In this document: piece after piece, positions 5,467 to 24,011 of the stretch
Layout: every line of letters begins with the position of its first letter
Numbering within the stretch: position 1 is the first letter of the stretch
Source of the DNA: Roseovarius pelagicus
Lineage (GTDB): Bacteria > Pseudomonadota > Alphaproteobacteria > Rhodobacterales > Rhodobacteraceae
Direction: 5' to 3'
Assembly: GCF_025639885.1 (NCBI RefSeq)
Contig: NZ_CP106738.1
Span: 1,116,001-1,180,000, forward strand
Length of the DNA stretch: 64,000 nt
Made by a program: the position numbers and the translations under genes
Notes under the pieces: generated by a model
What the model was told of the DNA's origin: nothing
What the model saw: the letters and a program-made list of their open reading frames with translations, nothing else
Database searches by the model: none

Positions 5467-7541
5467 CAATTAGCCCCCAACCCGACATCAACCCGATCAT
5501 GGCGCAACGGTTCGTCGATATCGACAACCGTTTCCAATTCGCGCGCATAGCGATGCCCGGCATAGACTGCCGATGCGATGATCGCAGGTGCCTCGCAATC
5601 TCCGATACGGCGCAGGGTAAAGGGCAGCGCCCCCGCCCGCGCCCCGCCCAGTAGATCGTAGTAGAGCGCATCATTCGGCGTTCGCGCCGTGACCATCACC
5701 ACGTGGCTGGCGGATACAGCCCTGTCAGCCCCGGTATAGGCACAGGTCAAACGTGCCGTATGCCCGTCGAACCCGGCAATCGAATGGGCCGTTTCGATCC
5801 CGATCCCGAGGGTCATCATATGTGTGCGGATGCGCCATCGTTCGGACGTGTTCGCAGCCCAGCGCGACACGCTGTCGGCCGGTGTGCAATAGGTCACATC
5901 CAGCCCGACCCGATGCAGATGCTCGGCAATGACACCGCCCATGTAATATCCATCGCCATCATAGACCAATGTCGGTCCATCCGGCAGCCTGCCATCCATG
6001 ATATCGTCCGGCGTCAGCACGCGTGCAGCCGCATCACCCGTTGCAATCTGGTGGAACATCTCATCATCGAACATCTCTGGGCGCCAGCGCGATCCGGTGG
6101 CGATGGCGACGTGATCCGCCTCTACTGCCATAACATCGGCCACATCCATCATGCTCTCGCGAAAGATATCGACATTGGGCATGACCAGCAGTTGCTGTTT
6201 GCGGTAATCGCGAACGCGGATGTATTCGCTCATTCCCGGCAGCGCCGCCTCGCGTGTCACCCGCCCGCCAATCTCGCGGCCCGCCTCCGCCAGCATCACC
6301 TCGTAACCGCGTTTACCCAGTCCGCGCGCGGCCTCTAACCCAGCGGGGCCGGACCCCACCACCAGAACACGTCCCTCAGTCGCTTTTTCGCTGATGATTT
6401 CGGGATGCCAGCCACGGCGCCATTCCTCTCCCATCGTGGGGTTCTGGGTACATCGGATCGGCGCGCTCAGACTGTCGCCCGCATAGCAAATGTTGCAGCC
6501 GATACATTCGCGGATCTCTTCGGAACGGCCCTCTTCGATTTTCTTTGGCAGAAACGGGTCGGCAATGGACGGCCGCGCCGCGCCGATGAAATCGGTCACG
6601 CCGCGTTTGATCTGCGACACCATCGTGTCGGGTGAGGTAAAGCGACCGACGGTAACGACGGGCTTGTCAGTGACTGATTTCACCCAAGACATGTAAGGCT
6701 CAAGCGGGGCTTCCTTGACGAAGCGGGATACCCCCATCTCCAGCGAATAATCAGCAATGTTGATGTCCCAAAGATCGGGGAGCGACTGCAACATCTCGAA
6801 CATTTCCCGCCGCTCGCCATAGATTGGCACACCGTCCTCGCCAACCTCTTCGTCCGACGAAAACCTGACGGCGACAGCACAGGTATCGCCCACTGCTTCC
6901 TTGGTTTCTTCGATCAGTTCGCGCACTAGGCGCACACGGTTTTCCAATGAACCGCCATATTCGTCACTGCGGGTGTTCATGCGTGGATTTAGGAAATTGG
7001 ACAGCAGATAGCCGTGCGTCGCGTAAACATAAACAATATCAAAGCCGGCATCGCGCGCCCGGATCGCAGCGCGGCGGTGCCAGTGGCGAAATGTGCGAAT
7101 ATCGTCCTTGTCCATTGCGCGGCACTGAAACGGGTGCCCGGCAGTGTTGGGCACCGAGGCAAGGTCCATCGGCGGCAGGCGGCTCATCATGTTGGGGGAG
7201 CGCGCGCCGCCATACCATAGCTCTGCCCCCGCGAGGCTACCATGTTTGTGGACCGCATCTGTCATCAATCGGTGCGCCCTTACATCGCTGTCATCCCAGA
7301 GTGACGCATAGGCATGGGGCAGATCGTCGGATGTCGGGTGGATAGAGTTATATTCCGTACAGACCACCCCCCAGCCGCCTTCGGCCTTTACCCCACGCAT
7401 TGCCGCCAGTGTACGTGGGCGCAAAAAACCCATGCCGGTACAATGCGGCACTTGGTAGAAACGGTTCGGCGCGGTGACCGGCCCGATTTTTAACGGCTCA
7501 AACAAAATGTCATACCGGGGATCTCTGGTCATGCGTGTCAC
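5466..7541 (-). CDS. Trimethylamine-dehydrogenase-like FMN/4Fe-4S/FAD-type oxidoreductase (probable N-demethylase)
   Basis: A 691-residue protein with the full TMADH/DgcA/2,4-dienoyl-CoA reductase architecture: an N-terminal FMN TIM barrel (about 1-345), a 4Fe-4S motif C346-x2-C349-x2-C352-x11-C364, and a C-terminal nucleotide-binding half starting with GSGPAG at 396-401. Cys34 in FYQVPHC matches the cysteine that carries covalent FMN in trimethylamine dehydrogenase, and Tyr173/His176 match its catalytic pair. Of the remembered aromatic cage, Tyr64 is kept but the two tryptophans seem absent, so trimethylamine itself is unlikely; a dimethylglycine- or N-methylproline-type substrate fits better. 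It lies behind an ABC importer and a TetR gene in one operon. Confidence 0.85.
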   Translation of the reverse strand: MTRMTRDPRYDILFEPLKIGPVTAPNRFYQVPHCTGMGFLRPRTLAAMRGVKAEGGWGVVCTEYNSIHPTSDDLPHAYASLWDDSDVRAHRLMTDAVHKHGSLAGAELWYGGARSPNMMSRLPPMDLASVPNTAGHPFQCRAMDKDDIRTFRHWHRRAAIRARDAGFDIVYVYATHGYLLSNFLNPRMNTRSDEYGGSLENRVRLVRELIEETKEAVGDTCAVAVRFSSDEEVGEDGVPIYGERREMFEMLQSLPDLWDINIADYSLEMGVSRFVKEAPLEPYMSWVKSVTDKPVVTVGRFTSPDTMVSQIKRGVTDFIGAARPSIADPFLPKKIEEGRSEEIRECIGCNICYAGDSLSAPIRCTQNPTMGEEWRRGWHPEIISEKATEGRVLVVGSGPAGLEAARGLGKRGYEVMLAEAGREIGGRVTREAALPGMSEYIRVRDYRKQQLLVMPNVDIFRESMMDVADVMAVEADHVAIATGSRWRPEMFDDEMFHQIATGDAAARVLTPDDIMDGRLPDGPTLVYDGDGYYMGGVIAEHLHRVGLDVTYCTPADSVSRWAANTSERWRIRTHMMTLGIGIETAHSIAGFDGHTARLTCAYTGADRAVSASHVVMVTARTPNDALYYDLLGGARAGALPFTLRRIGDCEAPAIIASAVYAGHRYARELETVVDIDEPLRHDRVDVGLGAN

Positions 7542-8354: not shown

Positions 8355-9459
8355 TCAGTCGCTTTTCAGGATCACGACAGACTTTGGTGACCAGGACAAC
8401 CAGACCGGTGCGCCGATCCGCTGCTCCAGTCCCTCGCGCCCTCCACGCGATTGATTGGGGGTAGAGATGGCGATGGGCGCCTCTTTGCCATCAATTGCAA
8501 CGTAAAAATGGCTGCGTTCGCCCAGATAGGCTGCTTCGCGTACCTTCCCCGCAACGGCGTGTTCGGTATCGGGTTTTTCTGGTGAAAGAGAGAATTTTTC
8601 CGGGCGCAACGCCAGTAGAACCGGCGCACCATCGGGTTGTGTGATCTGCTCGATGTCCATGGGAACCGTACCCAGCCCTTCGGTCTCGACGGCAGCATTG
8701 CTGCCATTGCGGCGCACGGTACCGGGAAAGAAATTCATGTTGCCGATGAAACTGGCTACCTCGCGGGTTTTGGGTGTTTCGTACAGGCCTTCGGGCGTAT
8801 CCACTTGCAGAACCTTGCCGCCGGACATCACCGCAATCCGGTCCGACAGGGTCAGCGCCTCTTCCTGATCGTGCGTCACGAAAACAAAGGTGATCCCCAC
8901 CTGTCGTTGCAGCGCGCGCAACTCCAGTTGCATCTGCTCGCGCAGTTGCTTGTCCAGCGCGCCCAGCGGCTCATCCAGCAACAACACCTTTGGGCGCAGG
9001 ATCAACGCCCGAGCCAAGGCGATCCGCTGTCTCTGTCCACCCGACAGCTGCGTCGCCTTACGATCACCATATCCCGGCAGCTTGATCAGATCGAGCATCT
9101 CATCAATCATTTCACGCCGCTTGGCCTTGGCTAGTTTCTGTTTACGCAATCCGTAGGCGATGTTGTCCGCGACACTTAAGTGCGGAAAGATCGCGTAGCT
9201 CTGGAAAACCATGTTCACCGGCCGATGATGCGGCGGCACGTCCGACATTGGCTGTCCGTCGATGTAAATCTCGCCCTTGGTGGTCGATTCTGAATCCCGC
9301 CAACATCCGTAAAAGCGTGGTCTTGCCGCACCCCGAAGCACCCAGCAGCGAGAAGAATTCCCCTTGCCCTATATCCATCGAAATATTCTCGATGGCCTGA
9401 AAAGAACCGAAGAATTTGCTCACATTGTCGATCGAGATGTATGCGTCTGCATTGGTCAT
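8355..9459 (-). pseudogene. ABC transporter ATP-binding protein, PotA type, frameshifted near codon 57
   Basis: Two overlapping frames together form one normal polyamine/spermidine-type ATPase of about 368 residues. The first part (from ATG 9459) carries Walker A GASGCGKTT at about 40-48 and stays good through RMLAGF. One extra base at 9291 (plus strand T in GATTCTGAATC; the expected reading is GATTCGAATC) then shifts the frame; after it the protein resumes as ESTTKGEIYIDGQ and continues with the Q-loop, LSGGQRQRIALARA signature, Walker B LLLDEPLGALD and a TOBE-like C-terminus. The site is not a homopolymer. If real, the importer of this operon has no working ATPase; a sequencing error is also possible. 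Confidence 0.82.
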
Positions 9460-9473
9460 ATGCCGGGCAGCCT

Positions 9474-10280
9474 TTACTGGTCTGGGTCCAATCCCTGTCG
9501 TCCCAGATACTGGGCGACAAAGACGACGAAGAACGAAACAAAGAGGATAAGTGAAGATAGCGCCAGAACAGATGGAAACTGCTGCGGAAAGCGCAACTGC
9601 CCCCAGATGTACATCGGCAGGGTCGGGTCGGTTCCCGTCAAGAAAAATGCCATGATGAATTCATCGAAGGAGATGGTGAACGACAGCAGCAGGCTTGCCA
9701 CAATGCCGGGAAACACCATCGGCATGGTCACGCGCCAGAACGTCCACCAGCCATTTTCGCCCAGATCGGCCGAGGCTTCTTCCATCGACTTGTCGAAGCC
9801 TTCGAAGCGCGGCAGCAATGTCGCCACCGCGAAAGGAAGACAAACAATCAGGTGCCCCAGCGTTACGGTATACAACGACAGCGGCACGCCCATGCGGCTC
9901 ATCAACACGAGCAGAGCCACCCCAAAAATGATCCCCGGAATGACCAGCGGCATCATAATGAACGTGACCAGTGCATTCTTGCCCGGCAGGCGGTAGCGCG
10001 TGATCCCCCGCGCCGCGACGACGCCAAGGATCGTCGAAATAATCGAAACCACCCCGCCGACTTTGACGCTGTTCCAGAGGGCTGCCCACATCGGCTCTCT
10101 TGACCACAGCTCAACATACCATTGGGTCGTCACGCCAGTCAGCGGAAACTTGGCATAAACCGAGTCGTTGAAACTGAAGAGCGGAATGAAGAGGATAGGC
10201 ACGTAGAGCACAATCAAAAAGATGACTGCATAGACCTGCAGCGGACGGTTCGGACGCTTTATATACGACAGGTCACTCAT
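9474..10280 (-). CDS. ABC transporter permease, PotC type
   Basis: A 268-residue inner-membrane permease with six hydrophobic segments. The EAA-loop that contacts the ATPase is seen as MEEASADLGENGWWTFWRVTMP around residues 165-186 (E-A-S-x3-G pattern). It belongs to the spermidine/putrescine/thiamine-type binding-protein-dependent permease family and would pair with the PotB-type permease whose stop codon overlaps its start by four bases. The actual substrate is uncertain; neighbouring demethylase genes suggest an N-methylated amine or betaine rather than a plain polyamine. Confidence 0.9.
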   Translation of the reverse strand: MSDLSYIKRPNRPLQVYAVIFLIVLYVPILFIPLFSFNDSVYAKFPLTGVTTQWYVELWSREPMWAALWNSVKVGGVVSIISTILGVVAARGITRYRLPGKNALVTFIMMPLVIPGIIFGVALLVLMSRMGVPLSLYTVTLGHLIVCLPFAVATLLPRFEGFDKSMEEASADLGENGWWTFWRVTMPMVFPGIVASLLLSFTISFDEFIMAFFLTGTDPTLPMYIWGQLRFPQQFPSVLALSSLILFVSFFVVFVAQYLGRQGLDPDQ

Positions 10281-11203
10281 GCTATCTTATCCTTAGCCAA
10301 ACGGGTGATGAACAAAAACACCAGCGCGATCGCCGACACCCACAACATCAACACAATCGACAGAGTTGCGCCCATCGGCCAGTTGTTCACTGGGCCAAAT
10401 TGCAACTGGATGAAATTGCCGATCATCGCACCGTCGGGCCCTCCCAGAAGTGCCGGGGTGATGTAATCGCCCGTGGTTGGAATAAAGATCAGGAATGCCG
10501 CCGCGATGATCCCCGGCAGAGACAGCGGCAGTGTCACCCGCAAGAATCGCGCCACAGGCCCGTCCCCCAGATCGGTTGCAGCCTCCAGCAAGGATTTGTC
10601 GATTTTCTCTAGGCTCACATATAACGGAAGGATCGCAAACGCGGCCCAAGCATGCGCCAGCGTGATAATCACCGCCTCACGGCTGTAGAGCAAAAATTCG
10701 AGTGGTTCTTCGATCAATCCGACCACCATCAGACCAGAGTTGATCACCCCCTCATAGCCCAGGATCACCTTCCATGCGAAAACCCGCAGCAGATAGCTGG
10801 TCCAGAATGGCAGCGTCATCAGGATGATCCACATCATCTTGTTACGATGGACGTGGAAGGCGACGTAGTAGGCCATAGGATAGCACAAGGCGACAGTCAC
10901 GACTGTGGCGATCCCCGAGATCCAGAAGGATCGCTTCAGAAGCGCGCCAAAGATCGGCTCGGTCCAGGCACGTTCGTAATTCGCCATCGTCAGAGCCGTG
11001 TCAAAGCTGAAGCCGTCACGGGTCCATAGGCTCATCGTTACGAGAATCAGGAACGGTGCAAGAATACCGATGCTCATCACCAGCAATGTCGGCGACATCA
11101 GCAGATAACCGCGTAGGTTCTCGCTGCGATGGAGCAGCCCACTCAGCCCGCCCTTGTTCCGGGCGCGTTGCTTTCGCGTGCTGGAAACCGACGTTTCTGT
11201 CAT
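10277..11203 (-). CDS. ABC transporter permease, PotB type
   Basis: A 308-residue permease with a hydrophilic, basic N-terminus (about 1-30) followed by six membrane segments. The EAA loop is visible as LLEAATDLGDGPVARFLRVTLP near residues 204-225. Family members form a heterodimer with PotC-type proteins to import polyamines, betaines or related cations. It is separated from the upstream binding-protein gene by a 72-base gap containing a strong hairpin with a T4 run, and overlaps the PotC-type gene. Confidence 0.9.
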   Translation of the reverse strand: MTETSVSSTRKQRARNKGGLSGLLHRSENLRGYLLMSPTLLVMSIGILAPFLILVTMSLWTRDGFSFDTALTMANYERAWTEPIFGALLKRSFWISGIATVVTVALCYPMAYYVAFHVHRNKMMWIILMTLPFWTSYLLRVFAWKVILGYEGVINSGLMVVGLIEEPLEFLLYSREAVIITLAHAWAAFAILPLYVSLEKIDKSLLEAATDLGDGPVARFLRVTLPLSLPGIIAAAFLIFIPTTGDYITPALLGGPDGAMIGNFIQLQFGPVNNWPMGATLSIVLMLWVSAIALVFLFITRLAKDKIA

Positions 11204-11275: not shown

Positions 11276-12403
11276 TCAGAAACCAGCTTTGATCTGCTCG
11301 AACATTTCGTTCATCTTGGTTTCCCATTCCTGCGTCTGCGGTATCTGGAAGTGCCCCGCCTGAAGGATTTCAATCGGGTTCTTGCTTAGACCAAGCCCCG
11401 TAAGCGTCTCTTCGTCGAACTCATCGAACGCCTTCTTGTTGGAATGGCCATATCCGTAATCGCCAATCAGGAACTTGCCGCTTTCGACGCTGATCAGGCT
11501 GTCGATAATCTCGTATGCCTTGTCCAGCTTGGGCGCGTCCTTGTGCACCATCAGACCACATACCCAAGTCAGAGCGCCCTCTTTCGGCTTGGCGAACTTG
11601 ACTGGCACGCCTTCGGCCTGCAATTGCACTGCAGAGCTGTTCCACGTCATGGACGCGACCATCTCACCCGACGACAGCGCCTGTTCAAGCGTGGTGTTAT
11701 CATCCGTATATGTGCGGATCAGTGGACGTTGCTCGCGCATCACTGCGGCGATCTTTTCGAACGCTTCTGGCGTATCGAGCTGATCGAACGGCACACCGGC
11801 CTTAATTGCACCGATCCACCACGCGTCCGCGCCCGCGCCCAGCGATCCCAGCTTGCCCTTGTACTTGGGGTCCCACAGGATATCCCAGCTTTCTTCCTCA
11901 CCTTCCAGATCGATCAGATCGGTCCGGTAGGTGATTGATGTCTGCCCCCAGTCAAAGGGCGCCATCCAGATGTCGTTGCCTTCAGCCATATTGCCCGGCA
12001 GATCGACCAGTTCCGGCATCACATCGGGCCAATTGCTAAGGCGCGACGTGTCGATTGATTGGAACAGACCCGTCTTGACCCAGCGCGGCAGGGCCGAATT
12101 GCAGGGGTGCGAAACATCTACGACGAAACCGCCGCGCATCTTGGTCAGCGCCTCTTCAGAGCCACCGAACACGGCGAAATTAGGCAACTCGCCGTTGGCT
12201 TCATTGTAGGGTTGGAACAATTCAGGGATGTCGTACCCACCCCATGTAAAATACGTTCCCTGATCTTCGGCCGCAGCCATCGCGCGCCTTGCGCCGACCG
12301 GAACGCTCGCAATCGCCACGCCACTTGCCAGTAGTGAGCGCGTGAATGCACGGCGGCTCATTTTGCCTTCGCGCATGGCACCTAGCTGATCAACAACATC
12401 CAT
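11276..12403 (-). CDS. Periplasmic substrate-binding protein of a PotD/spermidine-type ABC importer, Tat-exported
   Basis: A 375-residue extracellular solute-binding protein of the PotD/PotF class (SBP family 1/8-like). A twin-arginine signal is present: SRRAFTRSL around residues 16-24 followed by a hydrophobic stretch ending near ARRAMAA at about 38-44. The body has the family's YFTWGGYDIPELFQPY opening and the SGEMVASMTWNSS block near the hinge. First gene of a minus-strand operon; a terminator-like hairpin follows its stop. The promoter region carries the TGAATG palindrome at 12536-12549. Substrate unknown, probably a quaternary or methylated amine given the downstream flavoprotein. Confidence 0.9.
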   Translation of the reverse strand: MDVVDQLGAMREGKMSRRAFTRSLLASGVAIASVPVGARRAMAAAEDQGTYFTWGGYDIPELFQPYNEANGELPNFAVFGGSEEALTKMRGGFVVDVSHPCNSALPRWVKTGLFQSIDTSRLSNWPDVMPELVDLPGNMAEGNDIWMAPFDWGQTSITYRTDLIDLEGEEESWDILWDPKYKGKLGSLGAGADAWWIGAIKAGVPFDQLDTPEAFEKIAAVMREQRPLIRTYTDDNTTLEQALSSGEMVASMTWNSSAVQLQAEGVPVKFAKPKEGALTWVCGLMVHKDAPKLDKAYEIIDSLISVESGKFLIGDYGYGHSNKKAFDEFDEETLTGLGLSKNPIEILQAGHFQIPQTQEWETKMNEMFEQIKAGF

Positions 12404-12665: not shown

Positions 12666-13310
12666 CTATTTATCTGCGTCAATACTCCCCACCAATGCTG
12701 GCACCAGCCTGGCCAGACAGACCCGCGCGGCACGTTCTGCGCGCGCGCGCGTCATTCCACCCGGCGCGATGTGCAAATGTTGCCAATACCCATCCGTCAG
12801 CGTTTCCATCCAGTCACACAATTCATCAGCATCCCCGGATGCGCCATTCTGTATCAACGCATCCCAGACCCGCGTCAGCGCCTCGCGGCGACGCTGGTCG
12901 AATTCCTGCGCAACTTCGGCATATTGCGCGGAAAAGCGCAGCTCCCCCCAGAACGCGAACCAGAGCGGCAGCACCTTTGGTCCGCACGCCTTAGCTTCAA
13001 AATCTGTGGCGATCAGCGCGCTTAGCTGATCGCGCGGATCACTCCCTGCCCGCTCCAGCGCGCCCATCCAGAGCACCTCGTACTGGGAGTAGAGATCGCG
13101 CAGCGTCTCGGCCAACAGGCCATTCTTGGACTTGAAATAAAACGCCGCCACGCCCTGACTTAGCCCAGCCTCTTCGGCCACGGTTGCCAGCGTTGTCCTG
13201 GCCAGACCATGCGCTAGGATCGACCGCTTCGCCGCATCCAGCAACTGTCGCCGTCGCCGATTCGCATTTTCGGTGCGCTCTTTGCGCGGCTTAGTGCGTG
13301 ATTCCGCCAT
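12666..13310 (-). CDS. TetR/AcrR family regulator, BetI-like
   Basis: A 214-residue regulator with a highly basic N-terminus (about 1-22), a TetR helix-turn-helix at about 23-68 (ATVAEEAGLSQGVAAFYFKSK region) and a C-terminal domain with the PLWFAFWGELR block, which parallels the WYAFYGEAG block of the TetR protein at 7594. It is divergent from the phytoene-desaturase-like operon starting at 13452, which it probably controls, and it also lies just upstream of the ABC operon on the same strand. Ligand and sites are not known; a TGAATG palindrome sits 117 bases beyond its stop codon. Confidence 0.82.
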   Translation of the reverse strand: MAESRTKPRKERTENANRRRRQLLDAAKRSILAHGLARTTLATVAEEAGLSQGVAAFYFKSKNGLLAETLRDLYSQYEVLWMGALERAGSDPRDQLSALIATDFEAKACGPKVLPLWFAFWGELRFSAQYAEVAQEFDQRRREALTRVWDALIQNGASGDADELCDWMETLTDGYWQHLHIAPGGMTRARAERAARVCLARLVPALVGSIDADK

Positions 13311-13368: not shown

Positions 13369-13392
13369 AGTAAAAAAATTTATTTATTTACT
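13369..13392. promoter_or_regulatory. AT-rich inverted repeat in a divergent promoter region
   Basis: AGTAAA (13369-13374) and TTTACT (13387-13392) flank an all-AT spacer in an otherwise GC-rich genome, in the 141-base gap between the TetR gene (minus) and the operon starting at 13452 (plus). Suited to a promoter plus regulator site for both genes. The pairing is partly expected by chance in such AT-rich sequence. Confidence 0.4.
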
Positions 13393-13451
13393 CAAATAAA
13401 CTTTACGAAACACTCAACTCCAGTCTAGTCTGGCTTCAGGATTTCAAATTC

Positions 13452-15089
13452 ATGGCAAAACAGACATCATATGACGCGATCATCGCTGGCGCGGGCCATA
13501 ATGGCCTGACCACTGCCGCCTATCTGGCGCGCGCTGGCTTGCAGGTATTGGTGGTCGAAAAAAACGACTGGATCGGCGGTGCGGCAGTCAGCCGCTCGCT
13601 GCACGAGGGCTGGACCTACTCAAACTGCTCGTACGTCTGCTCGCTGTTGCGGCGCGAGATTGTACGCGATCTCGACCTGCCCAGATACGGCCTGCAAGTC
13701 ATCCCCTACGAAGGCGGCGCCAGCTTTACCAAGAGCGGCGACTACTTCGCCTACTACTCGGATCATGATGCGTTGCGCCGTGAAATGGCGCGCCACTCCC
13801 CCCGCGATGCGGATGCTTACGCCCATTACAGTCAGGCGATCATGCGCCAATGCCGGTTCATTCGTCCCTTCCTCCTGCGCGATGCGCCCGATCCCACGTC
13901 AATGCGTCCGCGCGACCTGAGTGAACTGGCATATCTGGTGAAAAAGGCCCACGGGCTGGGCAAGAAGGAATTGGGCGAAACACTGCGCTTCTGGACTATG
14001 TCCATTGGTGATCTTCTAGATGAACATTTCGAAAATGACCTGATCAAGGCGCATTTGGCGGGCTCCGGCATTATCGGTACCGGTCTGGGCGTCTATTCCC
14101 CCGGCACAGCCTATGTTCTGTTGCACCATTACATGGGCGACATTGATGGTGGCATCGGCGCATGGGGGTTTGCCCGCGGCGGAATGGGCGCGATTTCGGC
14201 CTCGATGGCCGCAGCATTCAAGGATCACGACGGCACTATCCTGACGGGGTCAGGTGTCGAGGAGTTCATCATAGAGGATGGCCGCGTAACTGGCGTGGCA
14301 CTGGAAAACGGCGACACGTTCCATGCGCCTGTTGTGGCCTCCAACATGGATGTAAAGCGCACATTCCTGAACCACGTTCCGCGCGCTAAACTACCCGGTG
14401 ACTTCGTTAAGGGCGTCGAGCGATTCAAAATACGCGGCTCATCGGCCAAGCTGAACATCGCGCTCGACCGGATGCCTGACATGCCTGCGGCCCCTGCTCA
14501 TGCCGGCTTCCTGCGCGGCGATATGCACGTCTCCGAAAGCTTGATGGATCTGGAGCGCGCCTATGATGACTGGAAGGACGGGCGCTGGTCAGTCAGGCCC
14601 TATATCGACATGCTGATCCCCAGTCAGATAGATCCCACCATGGCGCCGACAGGCAGCCACATGATGACGGTATTCGTGCAGTATGCACCCTATGATCTGG
14701 AGGTCGACGGCATCCGGTCTGGCGCAAACTGGGATGATGCGCAGCGCGCCGCCATGGCCGAGGCCGTCATTGACCAGATCGCCATTGCCTGCCCCGACAT
14801 ACGTGAGCGTATCGTACACAAGGAAGTGCGCAGCCCCGCAGATATCGAACGTGAAGTAGGGCTGACTGAGGGCAACATCTTTCAGGGTGAACTGACATTC
14901 GACCAACTGTTGTTCAACCGTCCTGTACCGGGCTTTGCCCAGTACGAGTCGCCCATCAAGGGGCTGTATCTGGTCGGATCCTCAGCGCATCCCGGTGGTG
15001 GCGTCATGGGTGCCCCCGGTGCCAATGCCGCGCGCACGATCCTGCGCCGTGAAACCCGCGACAAACGGATGAAAGGCTACGCCGCATGA
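13452..15089 (+). CDS. FAD-dependent oxidoreductase of the phytoene-desaturase-like family (first of a pair)
   Basis: A 545-residue flavoprotein. The N-terminal FAD-binding motif GAGHNGLTTAAYLARAG starts at residue 13 and is followed by VVEKNDWIGGAA, the acidic residue that binds the ribose. The C-terminal YLVGSSAHPGGGVMGAPGANAA block closes the FAD site and is typical of the carotenoid isomerooxygenase/pyridine nucleotide-disulfide oxidoreductase domain 2 group. Members outside carotenoid clusters are mostly uncharacterised. No carotenoid genes are near; instead it is first in an operon with a paralogue, a GcvT-like protein, an aminotransferase and a dioxygenase, so oxidation of an amine or amino acid is more likely. 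Stop overlaps the next start by ATGA. Confidence 0.85.
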   Translation: MAKQTSYDAIIAGAGHNGLTTAAYLARAGLQVLVVEKNDWIGGAAVSRSLHEGWTYSNCSYVCSLLRREIVRDLDLPRYGLQVIPYEGGASFTKSGDYFAYYSDHDALRREMARHSPRDADAYAHYSQAIMRQCRFIRPFLLRDAPDPTSMRPRDLSELAYLVKKAHGLGKKELGETLRFWTMSIGDLLDEHFENDLIKAHLAGSGIIGTGLGVYSPGTAYVLLHHYMGDIDGGIGAWGFARGGMGAISASMAAAFKDHDGTILTGSGVEEFIIEDGRVTGVALENGDTFHAPVVASNMDVKRTFLNHVPRAKLPGDFVKGVERFKIRGSSAKLNIALDRMPDMPAAPAHAGFLRGDMHVSESLMDLERAYDDWKDGRWSVRPYIDMLIPSQIDPTMAPTGSHMMTVFVQYAPYDLEVDGIRSGANWDDAQRAAMAEAVIDQIAIACPDIRERIVHKEVRSPADIEREVGLTEGNIFQGELTFDQLLFNRPVPGFAQYESPIKGLYLVGSSAHPGGGVMGAPGANAARTILRRETRDKRMKGYAA

Positions 15090-16642
15090 GCCGCTTTGAC
15101 GCAATCGTAATCGGCGGCGGAATCAACGGGCTGAGCGCGGCGAGCGTGCTGGCTAGGCGCGGCAAATCCGTCTGTCTGCTGGAACAGTCCGAGACACTGG
15201 GCGGCATGGCTGCCCCCGGCCCCGATGGCGCACCGCGGTGCGCGCATCTGCTTTATAATCTCAGCCCGGTTGTCCGCGCCGATATCGGTCTGGGCAAGGG
15301 TGGTTGGCCATTTCGCACAACGCCACTGCCCACTGTGGCGCTGGCACCCGATGGCGCGCATGTCGTGCTGCACGCCGGTGAGGCGACGCTGACGGATGGC
15401 AGTGCGCATCCTGACGCAGATGCCTACCGCACTCTGCACGATAGACTGGTCAAATACGGTGCCCTGCTACGGCAGTTGGCCGAGAATGCGCCACCTGGTT
15501 TTGACGCCCCTCTGGCTTCACGCGGCGCATTACGGCAATTGACGCGACTCGGGTGGCTTGGCCTCGGGATCAAGCGGATGGGCCGGGATGAAATGCGCAA
15601 TTTCCTGCGCGTGTTGCTGTCCAACGCGTTCGACACGATTCTGGACGAAATGCCCGATGGCCCGATGGCCGGTCTGCTGGCCACCGATGCAGTGCGCGGC
15701 GCAGCGATGGGACCGCGCGCGCCCGGCACGGTCTTTAGCCTGATTTACCGGATGGGGCATGGCGGCGAGGCCACGCTACCAATGGGTGGCATGACCGCGC
15801 TTTGCGGCGCCTTCGCCGGAGCCGCACGCGGTGCGGGCTGCCGGATAGAGACAGGCGTAAGCGTTTCCCGATTGTTGATCGAGAATGGCGCAGTCACCGG
15901 TGTCGAGACGTCCGATGGTCGTTGCCTCACTGCGCCGCTGGTCCTGACCAGTACAGGAGCCGAGGCCACCTGCCGCCTTGCCGGGTCGCAGCATTTCGAT
16001 ATCGAGGCCGCGCGGCGCATGCGCAACGTCCGCGCGCGGGGCACGGCGGCCAAGGTCAATCTGCGCCTTGGTGGACTGCCAGCGATCTCCGGCCTGCCCG
16101 ATAGCCTGACCGGCGCGCGTATGGTCGTCGCGCCCTCTGCAGCTTATGTCGAGCGCGCCTTCAACCCCTCAAAGTACCGCGAGATGTCATCTGCCCCGGT
16201 GATTGAAGCGATCATACCATCCGTCACAGACCCGACTCTCGCACCGGATGGTGGTCATCTTCTATCTGCCATCGTGCAATACGCGCCATGCGATTTGCAG
16301 GGGGGCTGGACCGAAACGGCCAAGAAAGCCCTGGCAAAGACAGCCATCGACACGCTCGCCGCCTACATGCCCGATCTGCCCGGGCAGATCACCGCGACAG
16401 AAGTTCTGACCCCCGCCGATATCGAGGCTGAGACCGGCGCGCCGGGTGGGCATTGGCATCACGCGGAAATGAGCCTTGATCAGTTGCTGACACTGCGCCC
16501 GGCCAGCGGGCTGGGGCGCTATGCGCTGGGGCCGGATGGCCTCTACCTTTGCGGTGCGTCGGCGCATCCGGGAGGCGATATCATGGGGCTGGCGGGGCGC
16601 AACGCGGCGCTGGTCGCCCTAGCGGCGGAGGGGCGCAAATGA
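15086..16642 (+). CDS. FAD-dependent oxidoreductase of the phytoene-desaturase-like family (second of a pair)
   Basis: A 518-residue flavoprotein of the same family as its upstream neighbour, with GGGINGLSAASVLARRG (FAD motif from about residue 11), LLEQSETLGGMAAPG, and the closing YLCGASAHPGGDIMGLAGRNAA block near the C-terminus. The two proteins align along their whole length but differ clearly, which suggests a heterodimer or two successive oxidation steps rather than a recent duplication. Four-base ATGA overlaps on both sides (with 13452-15089 and with the GcvT-like gene) show tight translational coupling. Specific substrate unknown. Confidence 0.85.
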   Translation: MSRFDAIVIGGGINGLSAASVLARRGKSVCLLEQSETLGGMAAPGPDGAPRCAHLLYNLSPVVRADIGLGKGGWPFRTTPLPTVALAPDGAHVVLHAGEATLTDGSAHPDADAYRTLHDRLVKYGALLRQLAENAPPGFDAPLASRGALRQLTRLGWLGLGIKRMGRDEMRNFLRVLLSNAFDTILDEMPDGPMAGLLATDAVRGAAMGPRAPGTVFSLIYRMGHGGEATLPMGGMTALCGAFAGAARGAGCRIETGVSVSRLLIENGAVTGVETSDGRCLTAPLVLTSTGAEATCRLAGSQHFDIEAARRMRNVRARGTAAKVNLRLGGLPAISGLPDSLTGARMVVAPSAAYVERAFNPSKYREMSSAPVIEAIIPSVTDPTLAPDGGHLLSAIVQYAPCDLQGGWTETAKKALAKTAIDTLAAYMPDLPGQITATEVLTPADIEAETGAPGGHWHHAEMSLDQLLTLRPASGLGRYALGPDGLYLCGASAHPGGDIMGLAGRNAALVALAAEGRK

Positions 16643-17817
16643 GTATTTTCACCGATCCCGCACTCGGCCTGCGTGGTGGCCCTTTTCAGCCCCGATTGGA
16701 AGAGCAGAGCCGCAGCAAGGCATGGTATGGCTGGGCCGGATACATCGCCCCCGCATCGCTGGATAATGTGGAGTTCGAATATTTCGCGCTGCGCAATCAG
16801 GCCGCGCTCTTTGATATATCGCCGATGAAGAAATATCGGATTACCGGCCCCGACGCGCTGACCGCGATAAATCGGCTGATCACCCGCGATGCAGCAAAAA
16901 TCCGCGTGGGCCGCGTCGGCTATTGCGTCTGGTGCGACGAAGAGGGGATGGTCATCGACGACGGCACGCTCTTTCGTCTGGCCGAGAATGACTGGCGGCT
17001 GTGCTGTCAGGAACCGATGCTGACATGGCTGTTGGATGCCACATGGGGCATGGACGCTGATGTGATCGACGAAACCGACACTCTCGCGGCCCTCGCACTG
17101 CAAGGGCCGACCTCCTATGCGATCCTTGAGGCGGCCGGTCTGGAGGTGGCGCAGATGAAACCCTTCGACCACGCCGAAGTCGAGCCGGGTTTGATGATTT
17201 CGCGCACCGGCTTTACCGGCGATCTGGGGTACGAGTTGTGGACCGACCGCGATGCGGCCCTGCCGCTCTGGGATCGGATTTGGCAGGCAAGCACGCATCA
17301 GGGCCTGCGCGCCATCGGATACGAGGCGGTCAACATCGCCCGGATTGAGGCCGGCTATCTGGCCGCCGGGATTGATTTTCAACCCGTTCACGCCACCGAG
17401 CGGCTGCATCGCGGACAGACCCCGTTCGAACTGGGCTTAGGCTGGCAGGTTAACTGGGACAAAGGCCACTTTAACGGTCGCCGTGCCCTGCGCGCGGCAC
17501 AGGACTCACCGCGCAGCCTGCTGATGAAACTGGATGTTGAAGGGTTCAAACCCGCCAACGGCGCACTGGTCTATCATCGCAAACGGCGCGAGGTGGGCCA
17601 TATCACGTCGGGCCTGTGGTCACCGACGGCCAAGCGCAACATCGCACTGGCGCATGTCAAGACGTCCTACGCCCGTCCGCGCGCGCCTGATCTCTGGGCC
17701 GAAGTTTATACATCCGAAGAAGGTCGCTGGACCACGCGCATGGCCCGGCTCACCCCGATGACGACGCCGTTCTTCGCCCCGGCTCGCGCCCGCGCAACAC
17801 CGCCCGGCCGATTGTGA
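16639..17817 (+). CDS. GcvT-like aminomethyltransferase (folate-binding)
   Basis: A 392-residue protein of the glycine cleavage T-protein/DMGDH C-terminal family. ATG 16639 overlaps the preceding stop; the open frame extends upstream but without justification. Visible features: [18 protein letters not shown] (about 56-73) as in T-proteins, [13 protein letters not shown] (about 189-201), the family's folate-site region, and a C-terminal barrel with [10 protein letters not shown]. It probably transfers a one-carbon unit from an N-methyl or aminomethyl substrate to tetrahydrofolate. In DMGDH-type enzymes this module is fused to an FAD domain; here it is a separate gene next to two flavoproteins. 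It is not the classical gcvT because no gcvH or gcvP is nearby. Confidence 0.85.
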
Positions 17818-17860
17818 CCACAGATCGCCGCGCCTCACAGACTTCAAACCGGAGAAACCG

Positions 17861-19252
17861 ATGACCGACCTTGCAACCGCCCCCGCCAACAGCCCCAGTG
17901 ATACCGACATCACCGACTGGGACCGCGACCATAACCTCCACCCTTGGGCCACCACTGACAGTTGGCGCACGGATGATTACATGCGGATCAACACCGCCAA
18001 GGGCATCTACGTGTGGGACAGCACCGGCAAGAAGTTCATCGACGGACCCGGCGGCATGTGGTGCGTGCAGATTGGGTATGGCCGACAAGACATGGCCGAC
18101 GCCATCGCCAAGCAGGTGATGGAAATGCCCTATGCCTCGCCTTGGTCCTCGACATCCGAACCCGCGGCGATATTGGCGCGCAAGATTGCCGAGATGACGC
18201 CCGGCGACCTAGATACCGTGTTCTTCACCACCGGCGGCTCCACCGCTGTCGATACCGCGCTGCGCACAGTACAGTTTTACAACAACCGTCTCGGACGGCC
18301 CGAGAAGAAGCTGATCATGGCCCGCGAGAAAGGTTATCACGGATCGACCTATCTCGCCTCTTCCGTGACTGGCAAGGAGCGGTTCAACACCAAATACGAC
18401 AATGCCAGCGATCTGGTGCGTTTCCTGCCTGATGTGAATCCCTATGGTCGCCCCGAGGGGACAACGCTGGACCAGTGGTGCGATCAGAAAGTTGCCGATA
18501 TGGAGGCGCTGATCGAACGCGAAGGTGCGGACAATATCGGTGCATTCATCGCCGAACCCATCCTGTGCTCGGGAGGGGTCATCGTGCCGCCGCCCGGCTA
18601 CCACAAGCGCACGCTCGATCTCTGTCGCAAGCATGACATTCTCTATATTTCCGACGAGGTTGTGACCGGATTTGGCCGCCTCGGGCATTGGTTCGCCTCC
18701 GAGGAAGTGTTCGACATTGTGCCCGACATGATCACCTGCGCCAAAGGGCTGACATCAGGCTATCTGCCGCTGGGCGCGTGTATCATGTCCAACGCGCTGA
18801 TGAAGCGCATGGAGGATCCAACCGGCGAAGAGGTTTTCTACAACGGCTACACCTATACCGGTCACCCTGTCAGTTGCGCTGCGGCACTCAAGAATATCGA
18901 GATCATGGAAGACGAGGATATTCTCGGCCATGTGCAGCGCGTCACACCGCATTTTCAAGATCGATTGAAGGCGATAGGCGAAAAGTTCGACATTGTCGGC
19001 GACGTACGCGGCATGGGATTGCTGGGGTGTATCGAGTGTCGCCCAGACCTGCCGCAAGACACATTCGACGCGCATCTCAAGTTCGGCGCCAAGCTGGATA
19101 TGGCTTGCGAGGAAATGGGGCTGATGCTGCGTCCGTTCGGGAATATGGCGGTATTCTCGCCGCCGCTGATCATCAGCAAAGAAGAAATTGACGATATGTT
19201 CGACATCATGGAGGCGGGGCTGGAAAAGCTCAGCGCAGAGTACAATGGTTGA
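17861..19252 (+). CDS. Class III (omega) aminotransferase
   Basis: A 463-residue PLP enzyme of the class III family, which transfers amino groups from omega-amino acids or amines to a keto acid. The [11 protein letters not shown] block binds PLP and Lys295 in [15 protein letters not shown] is the Schiff-base lysine; the [15 protein letters not shown] region lies around residues 121-135. RBS GGAG lies before ATG 17861. A 43-base gap separates it from the GcvT-like gene, and its 3' end overlaps the dioxygenase gene by eight bases. Its substrate is unknown; in this operon it may process the amine or aldehyde freed by the flavoproteins. Confidence 0.88.
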
Positions 19253-20036
19253 TATCAAGAGACTGAACAATGACGCGGATGCTGTGGCAGAGGCCCTGCT
19301 ATCTGACGGCGGCGTAATCGTTGAAAACCTCGCAGAGCCTGCTCTGCTGGACCAGATACTGGCGGATTTCGACGCACCATTCGATGAGCAAGGCGATAAG
19401 TTCGCCAATGACTTTAACGGGTTCAAAACGCGCAGACTGGCCAGCATTCTGGCCTACAGTACCGCTTCGGCGGACCTGATTGCACATGATCTGGTCATGG
19501 GCGTCGCCGACCGCGTGCTGAAACGCCATTGCAAGACCTATCGGCTGGGCAGTTCCACCGCGATCGAAATACACCCCGGCGAAGGTGGTCAACAGTTGCA
19601 CCGCGACGACGACTTCTACCCTATTCGCATTCCCGGCGTGGAATTCCAGATTTCCGCGATGTGGGCGCTGACCGATTTTACCATTGAAAACGGCGCCACC
19701 CGCGTCGTTCCCGGTTCGCAGGACCTGCGCAAGATCAAGGACATCCCCGAAACGGATGTCACGCAGGCGGCCATGCCGCGCGGGTCGGTTCTGTTCTATC
19801 TGGGTGGTACCGTGCACGGCGGTGGCAAGAATGAAAGCACCGAGCCGCGTACCGGACTGATCACCACCTATTCGCTGGGCTGGCTGCGACAGGAAGAGAA
19901 CATGTACCTCTCCGTCCCTCGCGAGAAGGCGGATTCCTATCCCGACCACGTCCGCCGCTTGATGGGCTATCAGTCACATGGGCCTTATCTGGGGGTCTAT
20001 CCGGGCGACCCGGACAATCACTGGTTCGATGCCTGA
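19245..20036 (+). CDS. Phytanoyl-CoA dioxygenase (PhyH) family Fe(II)/2-oxoglutarate oxygenase
   Basis: A 263-residue protein with a double-stranded beta-helix fold. The iron site is visible as His119-x-Asp121 (LHRDDD) and distal His191 (GTVHGGG); an arginine for 2-oxoglutarate is likely in EPRTG a few residues later. ATG 19245 overlaps the aminotransferase by eight bases. PhyH-family enzymes hydroxylate many small molecules, including ectoine and N-methylated amines, so a hydroxylation or oxidative demethylation step fits this operon. The gene converges with the GNAT gene, overlapping it by 19 bases at 20018-20036. Confidence 0.85.
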
Positions 20037-20617
20037 TCGGCCTGCCACTCGGCGCGCGTGATCTCGAACCACGGCACGTCTTCGGCATAGGCCCGTCCCA
20101 TGCCGCAATCACGCAGGCCGCATTTCAGCAGCACCCGTTGCGATGCTGCATTTTCGGGGTCCGTGCAGGCCACCACCAAATCCAGCGTGGTGGCCTCGAA
20201 CGCAAAACGCAGCAGGCGCGTGCAGATCTCTGAGGCATAGCCCTGCCCCCACGCCGACTGCTTCAGCATATAGCCGACCTCGATCTGGTCGTCGGGATAG
20301 GCATCCGGCACCAGCGCCTCCCATTCAATGTCGTCCGCTTCCACCGGGATCGGGGTCAGGACGCCATCGCCGATCTTCTCGCCGGTATCCAGCCGCTCGG
20401 CGCACCACATGCCGATCCGACCACCGGCACCGCGCCGGGTAATGAGCGACATCGCCTCTGCCACTTGCTCCGGCGTTTTCGGATCACACACGTATCTGGT
20501 CACCGCTGGATCACACAGTACATCGCGCGCCACATCCTCGTCGTCCAGCGCATAGGGTCGCAGGCGCAGGCGCGGCGTCTCCAGTATCAGTTCGGCGGAC
20601 GACAAGGCAGGGATCAT
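20018..20617 (-). CDS. GNAT family N-acetyltransferase (RimJ/RimL-like)
   Basis: A 199-residue acetyltransferase. The N-terminal [11 protein letters not shown] opening is typical of the RimJ/RimL subgroup; the acetyl-CoA motif is seen as [22 protein letters not shown] around residues 129-150, followed by [14 protein letters not shown], the usual N-x2-S-x-R-x4-G-F/L pattern. I start at ATG 20617, whose ATGA overlaps the methyltransferase stop; a longer upstream reading runs through that gene and is not credible. Target unknown, perhaps a small amine or ribosomal protein N-terminus. Overlaps the converging dioxygenase gene at its 3' end. Confidence 0.8.
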
Positions 20618-21420
20618 ACCGGCTTGCGCCCACGTATGTGATGGGGGCAATGCTCGCCCGATTGCAGCACTGGCACCATGGCCTGCCATGTCGCAATCTG
20701 CTCGGCGATGAAATCCGCGCCATAACGCGCCTCCCAAGCGCCGCGCCTTGCACCGGACAGTTGTTCTAACTCATCCACTGAGACACCGGCATACCAACGG
20801 TTGCGGTTGACCAGTTCGACATCCTCGAACCCCGCATCGCGCATCGCCACCCCGTATCGTGCGGGCGAGGCCATGGCGAAGTCCAGCGCCTCGGCGGCGA
20901 TGTAATCAGCCATCTCACGGCTAGGCGCACCATCATGCGAGATCAGCCAGTCCGATGCCGCGAACATGCCACCCGGTTTCAGCACCCGGAACGCCTCTTT
21001 GGTCAGCGCTTCTTTGTCTGGGATGTGGATGATGGAGTCCTTGGAAAACACAACGTCGAATGTCGCATCCGCAAATGGAAAGGGGCCCGGCGTCACCTTC
21101 TTGATCGTGATCTTATCCGCGAGTTCCGCCGCCTCGGCCCGCTCCCGCGCCGCGCGGCAAACCGGGTCCTCGACGTCGATGCCGGTGACGTGCCCTGCAC
21201 CGTGACTGCGCACCAGTTCCAAGGCAATGGCACCCGACCCGCACCCGATATCCAGCACATGTTTGCCCGCCAGATCGACCGCCTCGATCACGCGGGCCAC
21301 CTCGTCCGGTCCGCCGGGTGACAGATACCCTTCGCCCCACAGCTCTTCTAGAAAATCTATGTGTATCTGGTCGTATAGATCATCGCCCGGCATGACATCC
21401 TCCGCTGCGTTTCCATTCAA
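20614..21420 (-). CDS. SAM-dependent methyltransferase, phosphoethanolamine/sarcosine N-methyltransferase-like
   Basis: A 268-residue class I methyltransferase. SAM motif I is [13 protein letters not shown] (about residues 55-67), followed by VTGIDVED (motif II) and [13 protein letters not shown] (post II). The upstream stretch [11 protein letters not shown] (about 28-38) resembles phosphoethanolamine and glycine/sarcosine N-methyltransferases, which methylate amines stepwise. Start at 21420, or at ATG 21393 (MPGDDLYDQ) if shorter. It is divergent from the DMGDH-like gene across a 131-base promoter region with a TGAATG palindrome. Substrate unproven; the neighbourhood favours a methylated amine. 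Confidence 0.75.
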
Positions 21421-21551: not shown

Positions 21552-24011
21552 ATGCCTGCCAATCTGCCCAGCCATGCCCGGACAGTTATCATCGGTGGCG
21601 GCTCTATTGGCTGCAACACGGCCTACCACCTGACCAAACTCGGGCACGCGGACGTGGTCGTTCTGGAACAGGGGCAGTTGACCTCCGGCACCACCTGGCA
21701 CGCCGCCGGGCTGATCGTCGCAGGGTTGTTGAAGTCAGAGTCCGAATGCGAAATCTATACTCATGGGCGTGACCTCTATGCCCGTCTGGAACAGGAAACC
21801 GGCCTGCCAACCGGCTTTCGCGATGTTGGTTACCTTCAGATCGCCACCAACGACGAGCGTACACACGAGATGCGCCGCGCAGCGCCGTTCATGCGGCGAT
21901 ACGGCATCAATTGCTACGAAGTGTCACCGCGCGAGGCGCAGGATCTCTTTCCCGTCGGCGATCTTAACAACGTAAAATCCGCATTCTACATCCCCGAAGA
22001 TGGCCGTGCGAACCCGGTTGATGTGACCATGTCGCTGGGCAAGGGCGCGCGTATGGGGGGCGCGCAGATATTCGAGGGTGTCCGCGTGACAGAGATTACC
22101 GCCAAGAACGGCACCGCCACTGGCATCTGCACGCAGGACGGTCAGGCGATCACCTGCGAAAACATCGTGATCTGCGGCGGCATGTGGTCACGACAATTGG
22201 GCGCAAAGGCCGGCATTAACCTGCCTCTACAGGCCGCCGAACATTACTATCTGATCACCGAAGCCATCCCCGGCCTGCCCCGTGATCTGCCAGTGCTCGA
22301 AGACCCCAGCACCTACACTTACTACCGCGAGGAAATGGGCGGGATGATGCTGGGCCTGTTCGAGCCGGGTGCCGCCGCGTGGAAGCTGGACGGCATTCCC
22401 GACGATTTCCAGTTCGGCGAGATTGAACCGGACTGGGACCGTGTCACCCCCGATCTGGAAAAGGCCTATAGCCGCGTCCCAGATATGATGACCCATGGTG
22501 TGAAAAAGCTCTTTTGCGGACCAGAGAGTTTTACCCCGGATCTGGCTCCGCTGGTTGGCCCGACGCCGGAGTTGCGCAACGCATGGGTTGCCTGCGGCAT
22601 GAACTCGCTCGGCATCCTAAACGGTGCGGGCACTGGCATGGTTCTGGCGCACTGGATCGTCGATGGCCTGCCGCCCGTCGATGTGACGGGCATCAACGTC
22701 AACCGCTTTGGCAAATCCGAAGCAACACCTGCGTTTCGCCGTGACCGCACACCAGAGCAGCTGGGTATGCTCTTTGGTCAACATTGGCCGGATGAATCAC
22801 CAAAGACCGCGCGCAATGTCAAACGCTCGGTTCTGCATGACCGGTTGGCTGCGGCGGGGGCCTATTTCGCCGAAGGACACGGTTGGGAAATGCCGGACTG
22901 GTTCGCGCCGACACCCGGTCAGGCCAAGATCGAAAATCATAGCTGGTTCCGTCAACATTGGTGGGACTGGCACGCCGGAGAACACCGCGCCGCGCGCGAA
23001 GACGTGATCGTTATGGATATGAGCACCATGTCGTGCTTTGCCGTCGAAGGTCCGCATGCCTGCGCGCTGCTGTCCCGCCTCAGTTGCAACGAGGTCGATG
23101 TGGCACCGGGTCGGGTCGTCTATACCGCGTGGGTCAACGAAGCCGGCGGGTTCGAGGCGGACCTGACTGTGACGCGGTTGACCCGAGACAAATTCATGGT
23201 CGTGGTCGGTGAAAACAGCCACGGCCACACCGAAATGCGTCTGCGCCGCCATATCGCGGAGGATGAATTTGTTGTCATAACCGATGTCACTGCCGCGCGT
23301 TCGCAGATCAACGTGCACGGCCCTAAATCGCGCGAACTTCTCAGCCGCGTATCGGGCGCGGACCTCGGTAACGATGCATTTCCCTTTATGACTGCGCGCG
23401 AGATCGACGTCGGCTATGCTGTTGTGCTGGCCATGCGCGTCACCTTTGTGGGCGAGTTGGGATGGGAATTGCACGTCCCTGCGACGCAAGCAGTGCAAAC
23501 CTATGATCTGATCACTGACGCAGGCCATGATTTGGGCCTGCGCAATGCCGGCATGCAAACGCTGAATTCCCTACGGCTAGAGAAAGCATATCGCGATTTT
23601 GGGTTGGATGTGGACAACACAGACAACCCGATCGAGGCTGGATTGGGCTTTGCCGTCAAACTGGACAAGCCCGGCGGCTTTATCGGGCGCGATGCGCTGG
23701 CCGCGATCAAGGCGCGCGGTGTCCCGCACGCCCGGATGCTGCAATTCCTGCTGCGCGATCCCGAGCCGTTACTATATGGCAACGAGTTGATTTATCTGGA
23801 TGGCCGTGAAGTCGGCTACATTCAGGTTGGCGGCTACGGACACACGCTGGGCGGCGCGGTGGGGCTGGGCTTTGCCGAATTGGACGCTCCCCTGACCGCC
23901 GCGCGGGTCGAGGCAGGCCACTGGCAGATCGACATTGCCGGACAGCGATACGCGGCGACGGCGTCGCTCAGACCTCTTTATGATCCGGACATGACAAAGA
24001 TCAAAGTGTAA
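21552..24011 (+). CDS. Dimethylglycine/sarcosine dehydrogenase-like FAD-folate enzyme
   Basis: An 819-residue two-module protein. The N-terminal FAD domain has GGGSIG at residues 15-20 and TSGTTWHAAG, where His50 is the likely covalent FAD site as in mammalian DMGDH. The C-terminal half (about 430-819) is a GcvT-like folate domain with FVGELGWELHVP and a long glycine-rich end. The enzyme is expected to oxidise an N-methyl group and hand the C1 unit to tetrahydrofolate. Dimethylglycine and sarcosine are the classic substrates, but related N-methyl amines cannot be excluded. Monocistronic, divergent from a methyltransferase, with a palindrome in its promoter. Confidence 0.87.
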   Translation: MPANLPSHARTVIIGGGSIGCNTAYHLTKLGHADVVVLEQGQLTSGTTWHAAGLIVAGLLKSESECEIYTHGRDLYARLEQETGLPTGFRDVGYLQIATNDERTHEMRRAAPFMRRYGINCYEVSPREAQDLFPVGDLNNVKSAFYIPEDGRANPVDVTMSLGKGARMGGAQIFEGVRVTEITAKNGTATGICTQDGQAITCENIVICGGMWSRQLGAKAGINLPLQAAEHYYLITEAIPGLPRDLPVLEDPSTYTYYREEMGGMMLGLFEPGAAAWKLDGIPDDFQFGEIEPDWDRVTPDLEKAYSRVPDMMTHGVKKLFCGPESFTPDLAPLVGPTPELRNAWVACGMNSLGILNGAGTGMVLAHWIVDGLPPVDVTGINVNRFGKSEATPAFRRDRTPEQLGMLFGQHWPDESPKTARNVKRSVLHDRLAAAGAYFAEGHGWEMPDWFAPTPGQAKIENHSWFRQHWWDWHAGEHRAAREDVIVMDMSTMSCFAVEGPHACALLSRLSCNEVDVAPGRVVYTAWVNEAGGFEADLTVTRLTRDKFMVVVGENSHGHTEMRLRRHIAEDEFVVITDVTAARSQINVHGPKSRELLSRVSGADLGNDAFPFMTAREIDVGYAVVLAMRVTFVGELGWELHVPATQAVQTYDLITDAGHDLGLRNAGMQTLNSLRLEKAYRDFGLDVDNTDNPIEAGLGFAVKLDKPGGFIGRDALAAIKARGVPHARMLQFLLRDPEPLLYGNELIYLDGREVGYIQVGGYGHTLGGAVGLGFAELDAPLTAARVEAGHWQIDIAGQRYAATASLRPLYDPDMTKIKV

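Follow-up and report, generated by a model that had tools for sequence, protein, structure and literature searches.

In dimethylglycine dehydrogenase and oxidase (DMGDH/DMGO), as in trimethylamine N-oxide (TMAO) demethylase, a GcvT-type domain at the end of a single chain hands the N-methyl carbon to tetrahydrofolate (THF); the N-terminal part of TMAO demethylase is not known to be a flavoprotein. The heterotetrameric sarcosine oxidase SoxBDAG combines a flavoprotein and a GcvT-like subunit encoded by neighbouring genes. A further arrangement is found in a gene cluster of Roseovarius pelagicus (assembly GCF_025639885.1, contig NZ_CP106738.1), where two proteins resembling the carotenoid desaturases CrtI and CrtO, both with flavin adenine dinucleotide (FAD) motifs, are encoded next to a stand-alone GcvT-family protein. 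The cluster lies in a window of 64,000 nucleotides (positions 1,116,001-1,180,000), which is the whole stretch of DNA that was analysed and part of a 4.27 Mb genome. We propose, with a probability of about 0.62, that this cluster serves as a regulon for breaking down a methylated amine and that its core trio of genes, g1, g2 and g3, encodes a folate-linked N-demethylase. The trio and the two genes that follow it are:

13452-15089, plus strand: g1 (545 aa), CrtI/CrtO-like FAD protein, core gene 1 (Pfam, NCBIfam, FAD motif GAGHNG); by prediction probably an N-methyl amine oxidase or dehydrogenase
15086-16642, plus strand: g2 (518 aa), core gene 2, another CrtI/CrtO-like FAD protein (Pfam, NCBIfam)
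16639-17817, plus strand: g3 (392 aa, ATG at 16639), stand-alone GcvT-family protein, core gene 3
17861-19252, plus strand: g4 (463 aa), class III aminotransferase (Aminotran_3; NF005447 above cut-off)
19245-20036, plus strand: g5 (263 aa, ATG at 19245), PhyH-type Fe(II)/2-oxoglutarate oxygenase, accessory and rare

Four-base overlaps (ATGA) join g1 to g2 and g2 to g3, g4 and g5 overlap by 8 bases, and g3 and g4 are separated by a 43-base gap. A first-pass annotation of this DNA had described five plus-strand genes, mostly overlapping by 4-8 bases, and its coordinates are borne out, as is 'mostly overlapping', with an overlap at three of the four junctions. Pfam and NCBIfam agree with its choice of families (two desaturase-like flavoproteins, GcvT, class III aminotransferase and PhyH): g1 and g2, which are 30-33% identical to each other, match DAO, NAD_binding_8 and Amino_oxidase-type FAD models, and g3 matches GCV_T (181.5 bits) and GCV_T_C. 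Motifs place the pyridoxal phosphate (PLP) lysine of g4 at residue 295 and the HxD of g5 at residues 119-121, with a His further on. The divergent BetI-like TetR gene that it reported is also present (12666-13310, minus strand), with a BetI-type C-terminal domain and scores below the BetI cut-offs (103 of 201 and 97 of 118 bits), as is the adjoining polyamine/betaine-type ATP-binding cassette (ABC) operon, the minus-strand genes beyond the TetR gene being a PotF/PotD-type set.

Among the described systems, g3 is most like the GcvT domains of DMGDH/DMGO and TMAO demethylase, together with GcvT itself: its NCBIfam scores are 241 bits for TMAO demethylase (over the C-terminal part), 202 for GcvT, 140 for SoxA and 128 for the dimethylsulfoniopropionate (DMSP) demethylase DmdA (NF009133), the last below a cut-off of 410. 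The cluster differs from DMGDH/DMGO in that the GcvT chain is separate, has two CrtI/CrtO-like partners and carries no DAO domain in the same chain; the family architecture of DAO, FAO_M and GCV_T in one chain is thus absent, g1, g2 and g3 being separate proteins without FAO_M. The match to SoxA is a likeness to SoxBDAG, but the two FAD proteins of the trio are long and come from a different family, and no small gene of SoxD or SoxG type lies between them. CrtO and CrtI share sequence family and predicted fold with g1 and g2, whereas the trio has no carotenoid context, falls far under the carotenoid cut-offs and has a GcvT partner. Trimethylamine dehydrogenase (TMADH) and histamine dehydrogenase are resembled by the product of an accessory gene outside the conserved trio (5466-7541). 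Likeness to GbcA and to the Puu putrescine route is seen not in the window cluster but in relatives, through neighbours of Rieske, glutamine synthetase (GS), DAO, aldehyde dehydrogenase (ALDH) and glutamine amidotransferase (GATase) type.

Conservation of the trio

With each species represented by a single genome, a scan recovered at least 583 relatives of g1, of which the best 80 loci were kept, so that the counts given here describe near relatives. The closest named relative among the matches listed is Pseudohalocynthiibacter aestuariivivens, with a g1 that is 99% identical. By tblastn, g1 is present in 80 of the 80 loci, g2 in 78 and g3 in 73, and each of the seven loci without g3 stops within 1,356 bases of g1. 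In all 73 loci with enough contig, g1, g2 and g3 follow one another in the same order and on the same strand, and, with 73 of 73 keeping it, the arrangement is not due to chance. Judged by record names, the carriers include Rhodobacterales and Hyphomicrobiales genera as well as beta- and gammaproteobacteria. Gene order outside this strain had been suggested as a check by the first-pass annotation, and for the trio it holds throughout, in alpha-, beta- and gammaproteobacteria. The five-gene unit that it had described does not: the invariant unit is three genes, PhyH being a local extra (5 of 80 loci). We conclude that the conserved core is g1, g2 and g3, and that the aminotransferase and PhyH are accessory. 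The annotation drew the limits of the system too narrowly, since it takes in the ABC transporter, the TMADH-like enzyme and an N-methyltransferase-like gene outside 13452-20036.

At both junctions the commonest spacing, with start codons picked by script rather than by a gene finder, is -4 bases, seen in 19 of 59 loci for g1/g2 and in 25 of 73 for g2/g3. A tree of 39 sequences places g1 and g2 in one clade each (100/100). Mean column identity in the alignments of relatives is 72% for g1, 60% for g3 and 50% for g2; g2 evolves faster than g1. Residues D107, D108, E199 and R235 of g3 are invariant in 36 sequences (the window and 35 relatives) and lie in motifs common to solved TMAO demethylase and GcvT, in the latter of which these positions presumably serve folate binding. 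Two hallmarks of folate-linked flavoprotein N-demethylases that sequence can show, a GcvT-type protein with conserved site residues and an FAD enzyme that shares its chain or operon, are found here, in g3 and in the adjoining g1 and g2 with their FAD motifs (73 of 73 loci); oxidation of N-methyl groups to give methylene-THF would be the third.

A related group of single-gene flavoproteins (32-40% identical) served as a control, and no g3 or GcvT match was found near any of the 17 loci examined; the sole DMGDH-like match there (locus L143) is to the DAO portion rather than to GcvT. Of 196 genomes sampled from the order, 13 have a g1 match at E ≤ 1e-80, namely the genome itself, ten at 63-82% identity and two at 36-38%. 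A sample of the phylum (398 genomes) gave 54 at E ≤ 1e-100, of which 11, including the genome itself, score at least 800 bits; the remainder belong to the single-gene group, with its lower scores, or are copies of g2 type. Loci L148 and L149, from two of these 11 genomes, likewise carry the trio.

A small conserved protein (81 aa in L098, where it has no Pfam match) is encoded in 30 of the 80 loci, directly after g3 in 29 of them, mostly in Hyphomicrobiales (L036 to L094). At L102 (C1), in the R. pelagicus genome itself, a flavoprotein like g1 (32%) has a Rieske gene and an aldehyde dehydrogenase less than 7 kb away but no GcvT match, possibly a single-gene amine oxidase setting.

A shared operator palindrome

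Upstream of g1 in relatives, mostly Rhodobacterales, lies a 22-base palindrome, TTTATTTGAGCGCTCAAATAAA. Over the 80 loci (1.47 Mb), 28 sites agree with it at 16 or more of the 22 positions: 17 before g1, seven before other cluster genes, and four (in L057, L072, L091 and L096) judged to be chance occurrences. Plain shuffling of the sequences gave 0 sites, and five rounds of order-1 resampling gave 1, 1, 0, 1 and 4. The g1 sites stand 47 to 80 bases ahead of the g1 match, mostly about 50. The others lie between divergent TMADH-like and binding-protein genes (L024, L025), ahead of the TMADH-like gene (L031, L042), ahead of a Rieske gene and ahead of a binding protein (L027), or ahead of a binding protein (L030).

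A strict form of the palindrome was searched for throughout nine genomes (39.6 Mb, from rounded sizes). Twelve sites were found in eight genomes, all in the cluster, and the reversed pattern gave 0 sites in the same nine. By coordinates, ten of the 12 lie inside the studied loci and the other two about 2 kb beyond, before transporter operons. The strict operator is followed in L166 by a permease-permease-ATPase-methyltransferase run and in L167 by a Rieske-permease-permease-ATPase-Rieske-methyltransferase run. Taking the relatives together, the trio, transporter, Rieske, TMADH-like and methyltransferase-like genes are under one operator, and because the strict form occurs in the nine genomes only in the cluster, they have the look of a single regulon that serves the use of methylated amines. 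We infer that the operator is bound by the adjacent BetI-like TetR protein. The corresponding features in the window are:

13379-13400, no strand assigned: operator palindrome, diverged copy, agreeing with the consensus of relatives at 17 of 22 positions
12666-13310, minus strand: TetR regulator, BetI-like, divergent from g1 (Pfam, NCBIfam)

The diverged copy, beginning at 13379, scores the same in L017. For the window's own transporter and TMADH-like genes there is no good copy, the best (15 of 22) lying within the TMADH-like gene itself. An exact-pattern scan of the window allowing up to three mismatches gave 0 sites, and the sole match in the strain's own genome to the 10-base core of the operator falls outside the window.

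Proposed pathway and competing explanations

We infer the following catalytic steps, in this order. A methylated amine would be imported by the Pot-type ABC transporter. A quaternary nitrogen would be opened first by an oxygenase, of Rieske type in many relatives and, we propose, PhyH in this strain. The TMADH-like enzyme would then take a methyl group off the tertiary amine, and g1, perhaps with g2 as its partner or with g2 acting on a second methyl, would oxidise N-CH3 to a methylene-iminium, whose carbon g3 would pass to THF as methylene-THF so that formaldehyde is not released. The resulting primary amine group would be removed by the class III aminotransferase, or by Puu-like genes elsewhere. 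PhyH may substitute for Rieske in this strain. The two never occur together in the 59 loci of at least 15 kb (Rieske in 0 of 5 PhyH loci vs 29 of 54 others, Fisher p = 0.052), and a search for Rieske-type PF00848 found none in the window and 13 matches elsewhere in the genome.

The substrate is most likely a methylated diamine or polyamine, or a lysine-like compound, which the Pot-type transporters, Puu-like genes and aminotransferases lead us to favour over a classic osmolyte betaine. The first-pass annotation had proposed the demethylation of a methylated-nitrogen osmolyte; conservation, neighbours and operator support the methylated nitrogen and the coupling of flavoprotein and GcvT, while the classic osmolyte betaine is the less favoured part. 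It could not match the gene set to a pathway that it knew well, and in the openly licensed literature, including that on operons of phytoene desaturase with GcvT and on methyl-lysine, methylated polyamine and butyrobetaine catabolism and judged from titles and abstract openings, we too found no paper describing the trio. The same literature, judged in the same way, gave no gene-level match to the pathway for homarine, a compound for which an operon has been described. Folate-linked oxidative N-demethylation is already known; what would be new is a form of it built on an unusual flavoprotein family.

The predicted models of g1 (pLDDT 86.8) and g2 (pLDDT 89.9) show the fold common to carotenoid desaturases and flavin amine oxidases, and because both share it the fold by itself cannot pick between a carotenoid and an amine role. 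One could therefore read g1 and g2 as carotenoid, lipid or quinone desaturases beside which the GcvT protein is a bystander, a view favoured by a gamma-carotenoid desaturase as the top structural match, by CrtO as first in the NCBIfam ranking and by one PF00494 protein (squalene/phytoene synthase family, not diagnostic) in the genome. The scores fall far short of the carotenoid cut-offs, however, at 277 of 1000 and 117 of 238 bits for g1 and 159 of 1000 and 102 of 238 for g2; no CrtI-family match in the genome exceeds the cut-off; and synteny and, in relatives, the operator tie g1 and g2 to genes for amine transport and oxidation. We judge a carotenoid function unlikely from the cut-offs and the genome scan, and the desaturase explanation as a whole, bystander included, strikes us as barely credible. 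An amine role is favoured because the company of g1 and g2 is amine import and oxidation and the genome lacks a CrtI over cut-off. A restriction of the flavoproteins to carotenoids or lipids, which the first-pass annotation had said would count against its proposal, is not apparent from the cut-offs, the genome scan or the amine-gene context, as far as sequence can tell.

A folate-linked N-demethylase also has to be set against a scheme in which the flavin and folate steps are separate, g1 and g2 desaturating or oxidising a betaine or cyclic amine at its carbon skeleton and g3 alone moving the methyl group to folate, the way in which DmdA demethylates DMSP. Such a scheme could draw on the placing of the desaturases among CrtI relatives, on ring or chain hydroxylation as a fitting task for the PhyH and Rieske genes, and on g3 itself, which besides the DMSP demethylase model (128 bits) matches structure 3tfh (98 bits), which we take to be DmdA. 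Yet g3 scores 241 bits against TMAO demethylase and 202 against GcvT and is closer to both of these models than to that of DmdA, and the translational coupling and strict co-inheritance of the trio suggest a joint step; we consider the separate-step scheme unlikely. More improbable still is a cluster that makes or remodels a methylated amine, by biosynthesis or salvage, centred on the N-methyltransferase-like gene. The phosphoethanolamine N-methyltransferase (PMT)-like gene is indeed present in 40 of the 80 loci and closes the operator-bearing transporter units of L166 and L167, but it is with catabolism that an importer, oxygenases, aminotransferases and Puu-like genes usually go together, and the methyltransferase match is absent from loci titled beta- or gammaproteobacteria.

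Several findings weigh against the catabolic N-demethylase itself. Besides the structural match to gamma-carotenoid desaturase, the operator precedes g1 in only 17 of the 80 loci, and the TMADH-like and Rieske genes are not universal among the loci. The N-methyltransferase-like gene does not fit a pure demethylation scheme. In the binding protein a Cys is aligned to an Asp of PotD that we take to be amine-binding, and the frame of the ABC ATPase gene (8355-9341) breaks right after Walker A; the gene is intact in L017, which leaves recent mutation or an error in sequencing as the cause.

Some proteins of the g1/g2 kind bear the database name 'phytoene desaturase family protein', which suggests pigment genes, and an amine regulon, if true, would correct a widespread annotation. 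One relative carries a database name, cut short, that starts 'Pyridine nucleotide-disulfide'. House-finch PYROXD2 is reported to be about 35% identical to Synechocystis CrtO, and carotenoid-metabolising activity was not detected (PMC12010460). Metabolite association studies give PYROXD2-N6-methyllysine as the strongest genetic link in plasma, with dimethyllysine and N-methylpipecolate also listed (PMC8109053), PYROXD2-dimethyllysine as the strongest link in a paediatric cohort (PMC9730628), and a urinary PYROXD2 signal (P < 1e-307) assigned to trimethylamine (PMC4564198). Human-type PYROXD2, an orphan, may belong to the same broad family as g1 and g2, a lead that runs through the CrtO identity published in the finch study. 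We suggest tentatively, thinking it somewhat likelier to prove wrong than right, that g1-g2-g3 represent a new class of folate-dependent N-demethylase complexes on CrtO/PYROXD2 flavoproteins, beside the DAO-type and TMADH-type solutions, which would predict that human PYROXD2 is an N-methyl amine oxidase. Methylated amines are nitrogen and one-carbon carriers in sea and soil, and the trio, if so confirmed, would offer both a new enzyme architecture for N-demethylation and a bacterial model of PYROXD2 biochemistry.

Neighbouring genes

The other features around the trio in the window are:

11276-12403, minus strand: PotF/PotD-type periplasmic binding protein
10277-11203, minus strand: ABC permease 1 of a Pot-type transporter (named from annotated relatives, not family models)
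9474-10280, minus strand: ABC permease 2 (named from annotated relatives, not family models)
8355-9341, minus strand: ABC ATPase, frame broken in this strain and intact in the near relative L017
7594-8298, minus strand: second TetR gene, 34% identity to the first
5466-7541, minus strand: TMADH/histamine-dehydrogenase-like flavin mononucleotide (FMN) protein (Pfam, structure match, CxxCxxCx11C motif)
20614-21420, minus strand: N-methyltransferase-like protein, nearest solved structures phosphoethanolamine N-methyltransferases
21552-24011, plus strand: DMGDH/DMGO-like fused FAD and GcvT protein, carrying DAO, FAO_M and GCV_T

The product of 5466-7541 scores 697 bits against 3k30 (histamine dehydrogenase) and 539 against 1djn (trimethylamine dehydrogenase), and has the old yellow enzyme (OYE) domain, Pyr_redox domain and four-cysteine motif of that family. 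The fused gene at 21552-24011 adjoins the cluster in 5 of 80 loci, and its membership is uncertain.

In the 59 loci of at least 15 kb, tblastn (E ≤ 1e-10) matched the aminotransferase in 56, the binding protein in 51, the Pot-type permeases in 49, the N-methyltransferase-like protein in 35, Rieske in 29, Puu-like proteins in 19, the TMADH-like protein in 12 and PhyH in 5; such matches denote family resemblance only, and the aldehyde dehydrogenase and DAO queries also catch unrelated members of large families. The trio is accompanied by aminotransferase, ABC transporter and Rieske-type ring-hydroxylating-dioxygenase genes in each of four plasmid records that carry annotation (Parasedimentitalea, Shinella, Rhizobium and Fuscovulum), that of Shinella also having a gene named NADH:flavin oxidoreductase; a record from Ensifer is without annotated features. 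Two Rieske representatives are GbcA-like, at 272 and 165 of 670 bits (below cut-off). Extra GS-, DAO- and GATase-type genes resembling PuuA, PuuB and PuuD are found in L073, L080 and L096, and ALDH-type neighbours in relatives resemble PuuC; the NCBIfam matches tested all lie below curated cut-offs.

A GntE/HemL-like PLP enzyme is encoded directly upstream of g1 in 15 of the 80 loci (for example L040, L043, L045, L092 and L095); the g4-type aminotransferase sits elsewhere in the clusters of other loci. Farther along the window, between 38364 and 56000, there are more ABC genes of Pot type, a gene of DAO type and two stretches resembling aminotransferases, which match the cluster proteins at about 25-43% and possibly represent further amine-catabolic clusters.

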